Assembly: GCA_937884605.1 (NCBI GenBank)
Contig: CALGDM010000006.1
Span: 186,001 to 250,000, forward strand
DNA: 64,000 nt
Reading direction: 5' to 3'
From: an uncultured Spiribacter sp.
GTDB lineage: Bacteria > Pseudomonadota > Gammaproteobacteria > Nitrococcales > Nitrococcaceae
The notes beneath the pieces are model-generated. The model saw only the letters and a program-made list of their open reading frames with translations. It did no database searches and was not told where the DNA came from. Each line of letters begins with the position of its first letter. Positions within the stretch are counted from its first letter, which is position 1. Below are positions 49 through 6,591 of this stretch, piece by piece. A program made the translations under genes and the position numbers.

Positions 49-125
49 GCGCCTGTAGCTCAACTGGATAGAGCACCTGACTACGGATCAGGAGGCTGGG
101 GGTTCGAATCCTCCCGGGCGCGCCA
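49..125 (+). tRNA. tRNA-Arg (anticodon ACG)
   Basis: Acceptor GCGCCTG/CGGGCGC, anticodon loop CTACGGA, T-loop GGTTCGAATCC, encoded CCA at 123-125. Confidence 0.95.
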
Positions 126-135
126 GACACCAAAT

Positions 136-161
136 AAAACCGGCATCAAGCCGGTTTTTTT
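136..161 (+). terminator. intrinsic terminator of tRNA-Arg
   Basis: aaaaccggc-atcaa-gccggttttttt hairpin plus T-run just after the tRNA. Confidence 0.85.
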
Positions 162-284
162 GTGCGCGGCCGGGAGGGTTCGGACCCCCAGAGGCTATGG
201 ATGGGTTCGACTCGAGCGCGTTGCGCGAGAGAACGAGGCCCGTCAGGGCCGAGTTAATCCTCCCGGGCGCGCCAGACACCAAAG

Positions 285-308
285 AAAACCGGCATCAAGC
301 CGGTTTTT
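285..308 (+). terminator. second copy of the tRNA-Arg terminator, also downstream of the convergent MFS gene
   Basis: aaaaccggcatcaagccggttttttt, duplicate of 136-161. Confidence 0.75.
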
Positions 309-1503
309 TTGTGCGCGCCAGTCGTGGGCGAAATGCAAGCAGGGTGGTTGCCAGCAGCGTCACCGCGATGAAGGGGATGACCGTCAGATTCAGTCCCACC
401 CAGCCAAGGTGGTGAAGCAGCGCGCCGGCCATCAATGAACCGGCGGCGACCAGCGCGAAAATCACCAGGTCATTGATGCCCTGTACCTTGCCGCGCTCCT
501 CGACGGTATGGGTCTCGGTGACCAGCGTGCTGCCCCCAATAAACAGAAAATTCCAGCCAATGCCCAGGGCCACCAGCGCCCCCCAATACTGAGGCAGAGT
601 CTGACCGCTAAGGGCAATGGCAACGCTCGTTAGCATGATCAAACCCCCGGCAAGCAGGATATTCAGCACGCCGAAACGCGCAATCAGCGAGCCAGTCACA
701 AATGAGGGGGCAAACATCCCCAGTACGTGCCATTGCATGACGAAAGCCGCATCGCCCATGGCAAAACCGCTCTCGCGCATGGCGAGGGGAGTGGCGGTCA
801 TCACGAGGACCATCACTGCATAACCGATGGCCGCGGCGATCAAGGCCACCATGAACGGCGGCTGGCTGATGATCTGTGGCAGCGGACGCTGCGAAGAGGC
901 GTTGTCCGGCTGGGCTGAAGCGGGTACCTGGAGGAACGCCATCAGTAGGCTGGCAAGGATCGCCAGCGCGGTTACGATCAGATAGGGGCCGGCCTCGGGG
1001 TGAGCGGCCCACAAGCTCTGGCCATGACTGGCATTCCATGGCCCCAGCAGGGCGGCGGCGACACCGCCGGCCATTACCAGAGAAATGGCCCGGCTGCGGA
1101 AACTATCGCCGGCGCAATCGGCGGCCGCGAACCGGTAATACATGGCAAACCCCTGATAGATCCCCAGCAGCAGATTGCCCAGGTTGAAAAGCACGAACGA
1201 GTCTTGAGCGATGCCCGCCGCGGCCAGCCCACCGCCGGCGGCCCCACCCACCGTGGCACCCAGAATGAATCCGGGGCGACGTCCGATCCGTTTCATGAGC
1301 ATGGACGCCGGAAAGGTCGCCAGCAGGGCGCCGACCTGCATCAAAGCCACGGGCAGTGTCGCCAGCGCGGGGCTGGACGTCAGCTGCTGGCCGACCACGC
1401 CACTCAACGTCATGACGGTGATCGCGGCAATCAGGAACAACGCCTGACTGACGGCAAGGATGACGACATTGGTCCTCTCGTGTGCGGGCCTTAATGGATT
1501 CAA
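295..1503 (-). CDS. MFS transporter
   Basis: 402 aa, about 12 hydrophobic segments, MFS-like motif MKRIGRRPGFILG. Confidence 0.85.
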   Translation of the reverse strand: MNPLRPAHERTNVVILAVSQALFLIAAITVMTLSGVVGQQLTSSPALATLPVALMQVGALLATFPASMLMKRIGRRPGFILGATVGGAAGGGLAAAGIAQDSFVLFNLGNLLLGIYQGFAMYYRFAAADCAGDSFRSRAISLVMAGGVAAALLGPWNASHGQSLWAAHPEAGPYLIVTALAILASLLMAFLQVPASAQPDNASSQRPLPQIISQPPFMVALIAAAIGYAVMVLVMTATPLAMRESGFAMGDAAFVMQWHVLGMFAPSFVTGSLIARFGVLNILLAGGLIMLTSVAIALSGQTLPQYWGALVALGIGWNFLFIGGSTLVTETHTVEERGKVQGINDLVIFALVAAGSLMAGALLHHLGWVGLNLTVIPFIAVTLLATTLLAFRPRLARTKKPA

Positions 1504-6179: not shown

Positions 6180-6270
<91 letters not shown>

Positions 6271-6303: not shown

Positions 6304-6456
6304 TGTCTGACAGTGCCGGGGTTCGAACCCTCGGTACAGACAGAGAGCGGGTTCGACCAATCGCGGTAGCGATTGGGACGCCGAGCGGCGCGAGGCGCCC
6401 GAAGGGTGAGGCCCGCAGGGCCGAATCAATCCCTCCCTCTCCGCCAGACATAAAAC

Positions 6457-6479: not shown

Positions 6480-6591
6480 TGGCTGACAGTGCCGGGGTTC
6501 GAACCCTCGGTACAGACAGAGAGCGGGTTCGTCGGTGTTTATCATTGATGACAACTACCGCTTAACCGTTTCCCATTGCTCCCGCCTATGA

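Follow-up and report, generated by a model that had tools for sequence, protein, structure and literature searches.

The window (the whole 64,000-nt stretch of Spiribacter sp. DNA analysed here) carries an element of the RtT kind behind each of two tRNA genes, tRNA-Arg(ACG) and tRNA-Ser(GGA). RtT RNA (Rfam RF00391) is the repeat found behind E. coli tyrT, and the homology is one within a wider group rather than membership of the curated family. Our preferred explanation, to which we assign a probability of roughly 0.55, is that these elements are cassettes composed of a mobile structured core together with a duplicated host 3' end and terminator, with inverted arms that are kept similar to the host tRNA by pairing and local copying. 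This explanation draws on the anatomy of the elements, the match between arms and tRNAs, covariation within the core, the spread of the core, its occurrence in rRNA operons and at dispersed sites, and a pair of occupied and empty sites in E. coli, all of which can be read directly from the sequences. The initial annotation had interpreted the Arg locus as a conserved element with flanks that follow the host tRNA. This interpretation is supported, with two reservations: elements of this kind, which belong with RtT, were already known, and the match between arm and tRNA is partly a matter of pairing.

Anatomy of the two elements in the window

The tRNA-Arg(ACG) gene is located at positions 49 to 125 (ARAGORN; 65.9 bits with the Rfam tRNA model) and has the T-loop TTCGAAT; all features described in the window are on the forward strand. 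A repeat search identified a 62-nt direct repeat (107–168 and 256–317), which begins at AATCC in the T-loop and continues through CCA, an intrinsic terminator and GTGCGCG. The terminator of the first copy consists of a hairpin and T-run (135–161; an inverted repeat plus T7), and the tRNA 3' end of the second copy, AATCC...CCA, occupies positions 256–274. The two copies differ at one position (61/62) with a period of 149 bp, exactly as the initial annotation had described. Its second observation, an inverted tRNA copy at positions 164–191, was also reproduced on recounting. This arm is antisense to the T-arm and acceptor stem at 25 of 28 positions; when the 200 nt that follow the tRNA were shuffled 200 times, no match as good arose. 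The arm is followed on its 3' side by GGGTTCGACTC (from position 203), a GCGC hairpin and GAGGCCCGTCAGGGCCGAGTTAAT (235–258), a 24-mer with a single occurrence in the window when up to three mismatches are allowed (0 expected). Judged from the sequence and fold, positions 203–210 (GGGTTCGA) are a copy of the 5' strand of the T-stem and the start of the T-loop, lying to the left of the insertion point.

To identify the core independently of its flanks, we used a covariance model of the core alone (R1), built from 30 cores of relatives and containing no Arg-ACG and no E. coli sequence. R1 matched the Arg locus at positions 204–260 (34.1 bits, E = 1e-6). The Arg core (211–255) is a short form with two predicted helices, P3 (CTC-GA-GCGC-GTT-GCGC-GA-GAG) and P6 (AAC-GA-GGCCC-GTCA-GGGCC-GA-GTT), both of which contain tandem G-A steps. 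In the predicted fold of the Arg copy (-71.6 kcal/mol), the arm provides the 5' strands of helices P1 and P2 and pairs with positions 256–274 and about 203–210: one half pairs with the downstream tRNA 3' end (P1) and the other with GGTTCGA (P2). Part of the similarity between arm and tRNA can therefore be attributed to the need for pairing, since the arm halves pair with the copied T-stem strands that flank the core.

The second element is located behind the tRNA-Ser(GGA) gene (6180–6270; ARAGORN). It has an arm antisense to the T-arm and the first variable-arm bases (6318–6337; 19/20), a core of the long form with helices P3–P6 (6350–6432; 68.5 bits with R1, E = 1.8e-15, this sequence itself being part of the model), and a direct copy of the tRNA 3' end, found by repeat comparison (6428–6446). 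The unit has a period of 176, and 104 nt starting at AATCCC are repeated with one mismatch. The repeated stretch includes the inverted arm, so that a second arm is visible in the sequence after the second terminator (6494–6513). The Rfam RtT model covers the Ser element from end to end (6331–6446). It scores 27.1 bits there and 18.2 bits at the Arg locus, both below the gathering cut-off of 45 bits. The initial annotation had proposed that the two loci have the same core; this is true of their structure but only partly of their sequence, which is not conserved letter for letter, and the Arg copy lacks helices P4 and P5, both of which are present in the Ser copy. When Ser and Arg cores from a single Spiribacter genome are compared, their similarity is unremarkable (62%), which is explained by the short Arg form.

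Complete elements were found only at these two loci of the window's genome. Three reduced loci (Ser-CGA, Ser-TGA and Ser-GCT) retain a terminator and an inverted arm with no 3' duplicate, and nothing comparable was found downstream of the remaining tRNAs among the 42 in this genome. One further match in the genome (at C12) is the decayed Ser-GCT locus, and weak matches at C21 and C9 were set aside as apparent chance matches in coding-like sequence.

The relationship between arm and host tRNA, which the initial annotation had described as flanks that match their own tRNA around a shared core, was seen across the 42 tRNAs of this genome and in relatives. In 46 of 50 first units the tRNA beside the unit is a better match to the arm than every tRNA for another amino acid (0 of 20,000 permutations as good). 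This also holds among Ser isoacceptors alone, and in loci from across the class (0 of 5,000 permutations as good). Spiribacter arms also copy unpaired bases of the T-loop and variable arm, and these are specific to the Ser isoacceptor. Core identity within the genus is 94% across the Ser isoacceptor loci of one genome, compared with 88% for the same tRNA in different genomes. Taken together with the isoacceptor-specific arms, this indicates that the cores are homogenised within a genome and the arms are local, in line with the earlier proposal that the flanks are templated or homogenised. About a third of class-wide arms have TGAGAA at the junction, which counts against pure copying of the T-loop, as a TTCGAA T-loop would predict otherwise.

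Structure and distribution of the core

Most cores are predicted to fold as a string of hairpins. The long form has helices P3–P6 with GNA loops and tandem G-A steps, and is strand-oriented. This structure was recovered by folding each sequence separately and voting; RNAalifold on plain MAFFT alignments gave almost none. Across 30 cores we counted 127 two-sided compensatory changes, versus 57 in shuffles and at most 44 when the partners were slid. Nearly all P5 hairpins (177 of 181) end in a GNA triloop. GA-GC...GC-GA modules are present in 64 of 195 cores, whereas the opposite strand has none; an earlier paper already mentions a tandem G-A motif in RtT (PMC7657543). Sub-threshold matches to two other Rfam families, RF02770 (Ysr224) and RF02902 (AaHKsRNA22), are located on or near cores (L284, L152 and L229), and these families may belong to the same group.

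R1 also recovers the E. coli RtT repeats (54–61 bits), indicating that the core structure is common to these and to the window copies, which, like RtT, lie downstream of a tRNA on the same strand and end in a copy of its 3' end. A search of 59 relatives with RF00391 gave matches in 33, seven of them above 45 bits. Readable host tRNAs in these relatives are Tyr, all four Ser, Arg-ACG, Arg-CCG or Gln-CTG, each with the element downstream; the arm is near +50, the direct copy near +160, and there are up to three units. The number of units at one tRNA ranges from zero to three between congeners. The few matches without a tRNA are located at contig ends and apparent island or intron junctions, or are weak chance matches. 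At one locus (L031, in G017) a sequence similar to a group II intron 3' end directly abuts the RtT unit and seemingly parts it from its tRNA, and at two others (L021 and L092) junction-like sequences suggest a genomic island in the tRNA-Ser 3' end just upstream of the unit.

Within the Gammaproteobacteria, R1 matched 149 of 370 genomes, and it also matches genomes from other classes of the phylum. In the examined loci, 114 of 150 matches lie on the same strand as a tRNA and no more than 700 nt downstream of it, and the hosts are mostly Gln, Ser, Tyr and Arg tRNAs. The occurrence of RtT near other tRNAs has been reported in Actinobacillus (PMC4986893).

Insertion sites and the E. coli rRNA operons

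The T-loop TTCGAAT is present in 84 of 88 host tRNAs (first units) compared with 46 of 93 other tRNAs (p = 9e-13). This rule may explain why Leu tRNAs, which have a long variable arm and other T-loops, are not hosts. At eight loci (L165, L177, L150, L152, L227, L149, L140 and L197, in genomes G158, G262, G162, G151, G366, G129, G401 and G326, respectively), the core is located in the T-loop of an incomplete tRNA copy, and beyond this copy the same tRNA follows intact, preceded by an upstream region of its own. L165 consists of three tandem 213-bp units, with the core in the T-loop each time. Other cores are in the D-loop (L169 and L288) or anticodon loop (L285 and L293) of tRNA-Ser copies, and the junction is GA^A at all of the T-, D- and anticodon-loop insertions inspected. 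Near-identical cores are also dispersed, with no tRNA, in G158 (L264–L270), G428 (L325–L332) and G410 (L272–L282). Those in G410 lie within a CGTCATTCCCGCG...CGCGGGAATGACG palindromic repeat, together with which they may have been amplified. We also observed an element behind a tmRNA gene (L312) and another behind a probable tRNA-Sec (L308).

The presence of the core in rRNA operons and at non-tRNA sites goes beyond what the initial annotation could see. BLAST, queried with a consensus core, pointed to the sequence that follows 5S rRNA; there, R1 gives the T1-T2 terminator spacer of E. coli rrnA and rrnB a score of 42.5 bits. This spacer shares 65 of 83 positions with a tRNA-Tyr core, above all 500 shuffles. 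In MG1655 rrnA (L301), the 5S end is followed by T1, an arm, the core, a second copy of the 5S end and T2, and rrnB (L299) has the same core and a duplicated 5S 3' end in its T1-T2 spacer. In rrnG (L304) the 5S end is followed directly by T2, the empty state, and the flank after T2 in rrnA is that of rrnG. On sequence comparison rrnA and rrnG are thus an occupied and empty pair, which could reflect either gain or loss. A comparison of occupied and empty sites had been suggested for the Arg element, and both states exist, among relatives as well as in this E. coli pair. Several E. coli rrn operons have no unit. The rrn-type core was found at 1–9 places per genome in 3,963 of 5,426 E. coli genomes and the tyrT-type repeat at 1–14 places per genome in 4,718, where genomes with no match of either type may partly reflect the limits of the search.

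Explanations and comparison with known systems

Under the preferred explanation, the feature is a cassette with its core at a GA^A site, within the T-loop of a shortened second tRNA 3' part; the cassette brings a full tRNA 3' end and terminator, leaving the gene unharmed, as in rrnA compared with rrnG. The core would be a non-autonomous mobile element, moved by an activity that perhaps acts on folded single strands. Recombination between the duplicated 3' ends may lengthen and shorten the arrays, and the arms may be kept matched by pairing with the copied T-stem strands (P1 and P2) and by re-copying from the adjacent tRNA through fold-back template switching. Some copies, when transcribed, would yield a small RNA, as for E. 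coli RtT; transcription of the window cores is putative, given the strong terminators upstream of both. Mobility is suggested by the variation in copy number (E. coli tyrT and rrn types, and units between congeners), by cores in three different tRNA loops and at dispersed sites, and by the occupied rrnA and empty rrnG. Against this, no transposase or other enzyme was linked to the element in this analysis, the window's genome has only two full copies, and the G410 copies are perhaps co-amplified. Most copies are fixed behind stable RNA genes, a pattern that vertical inheritance and array dynamics could also produce, and the compensatory changes and strand-specific GNA and G-A motifs would suit an RNA gene equally well. 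Taken as a whole, the core family resembles an ancient mobile cassette of wide distribution that lodges in loops of stable RNA genes. A broader formulation, which we advance tentatively and at slightly less than even odds, is a hitherto unrecognised superfamily of tiny mobile elements that insert at GA^A in hairpin loops of stable RNAs, duplicate the host 3' end and terminator, and copy their arms from the host, with RtT and the rrnB T1-T2 spacer as members. The targets would be the T-, D- and anticodon loops of tRNAs and 5S rRNA, and probably also tmRNA and tRNA-Sec.

The main rival is a conserved small RNA with arms constrained by pairing, that is, an RtT gene whose RNA is released from read-through transcripts of tRNA and rRNA, and in which the need for pairing in P1 and P2 is the sole reason for the match between arm and tRNA. 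Covariation in the core, the GNA loops of P5 (177/181) and the restriction of G-A modules to one strand (64/195) all favour it, as do Northern bands for RtT homologues in Actinobacillus (PMC4986893), a link between E. coli RtT and the amino-acid starvation response in work cited in that paper, and the weak sub-threshold Ysr224 and AaHKsRNA22 matches on cores. We nevertheless consider it unlikely, as it leaves aside the near-identical copies far from tRNAs, the cores in D- and anticodon loops, the unpaired bases copied by Spiribacter arms in an isoacceptor-specific manner, and the strong terminators upstream of the window cores. In an improbable alternative, a duplicated terminator and structured spacer are selected as a double terminator downstream of strongly transcribed stable RNA genes, insurance against read-through as in rrnB T1-core-T2. 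The order of gene, terminator, core, gene 3' end and terminator in the window, in Spiribacter relatives and in E. coli rrn operons agrees with this, but no intrinsic terminator is obvious between gene and core in many tRNA-Tyr units or in E. coli tyrV, several rrn operons have no unit, and the dispersed copies and own-tRNA arms are left unexplained. A tRNA 3' end directly duplicated from the T-loop onward would also be expected of a remnant of an integrative element that used this end as its attachment site. That origin is very improbable for units of 149 bp and 176 bp, which have no integrase or any other gene and no room for one; their flanks change with each host tRNA around a common core, the same anatomy occurs at 5S rRNA, and the island-like junctions at L021 and L092 form no part of the unit. 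Tandem duplications often occur near tRNAs, and one of these together with an accidental inverted repeat could in principle give the arrangement seen. The initial annotation had rejected a single chance duplication, and the recurrence of the same core with own-tRNA arms at dozens of tRNAs in many genera refutes it almost completely.

To our knowledge, the E. coli tyrT repeats and RtT RNA have no accepted explanation. In the papers open to searching, which exclude most of the older ones, we found no statement that RtT, the rrn T1-T2 spacer and the dispersed copies share a core, or that the arms of RtT match whichever tRNA hosts them. The rrnB T1-T2 spacer is present in many cloning vectors. Placing RtT, this spacer and the dispersed copies in one family gives them an origin that can be tested, namely a mobile core that has a defined GA^A site and for which occupied and empty alleles are available within a single E. 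coli genome. It also provides a natural case of an element with flanks that track the sequence of whichever gene adjoins it.

Among known systems, REP/BIME and REPIN elements are similarly short, palindromic, non-coding and dispersed, whereas the window element is a string of several hairpins with GA^A sites and host-matching arms. Inspection of positions 164–255 revealed no GTAG-type tag (located at the foot of the palindrome in REP/BIME), and the REP reading was set aside. Enterobacterial BIME clusters have been noted to contain rtT-like sequences (PMC2965389). Introns and intervening sequences resemble the element as hairpin inserts in a stable RNA loop (T-, D- or anticodon loop), but in those T-loop cases that were inspected and are clear, the interrupted tRNA copy is partial and has an intact tRNA next to it. 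This reading was set aside because the functional gene copy is uninterrupted, and a retroviral-type primer-binding site was rejected, as the antisense stretch has its centre at the T-arm and not at the tRNA 3' end. Integrative elements that insert at tRNA 3' ends likewise restore the tRNA with a 3' end that they carry; the window element differs in having no integrase, a length of about 150 bp and arms that follow each host.

The rrnA/rrnB T1-T2 spacer resembles the window copies in its core, in the duplication of the gene 3' end around it and in the second terminator that follows. It differs in its host, 5S rRNA, and in the end of the core (CCATA, not GAGTA), and in K-12 T2 is not a copy of T1. 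The closest relationship is to RtT itself (RF00391, the 178-bp tyrT/tyrV repeats and rttR). The window units differ from RtT in having Arg and Ser hosts, an intrinsic terminator in each unit and, at the Arg locus, a short core. They share with it tandem units behind a tRNA that each end in a copy of its 3' end, which is a 19-nt direct copy at E. coli tyrV, an arm antisense to the tRNA (GGGGAAGGATGAGAAGCTTCGA at tyrV), and a core that is found by the same R1 model.
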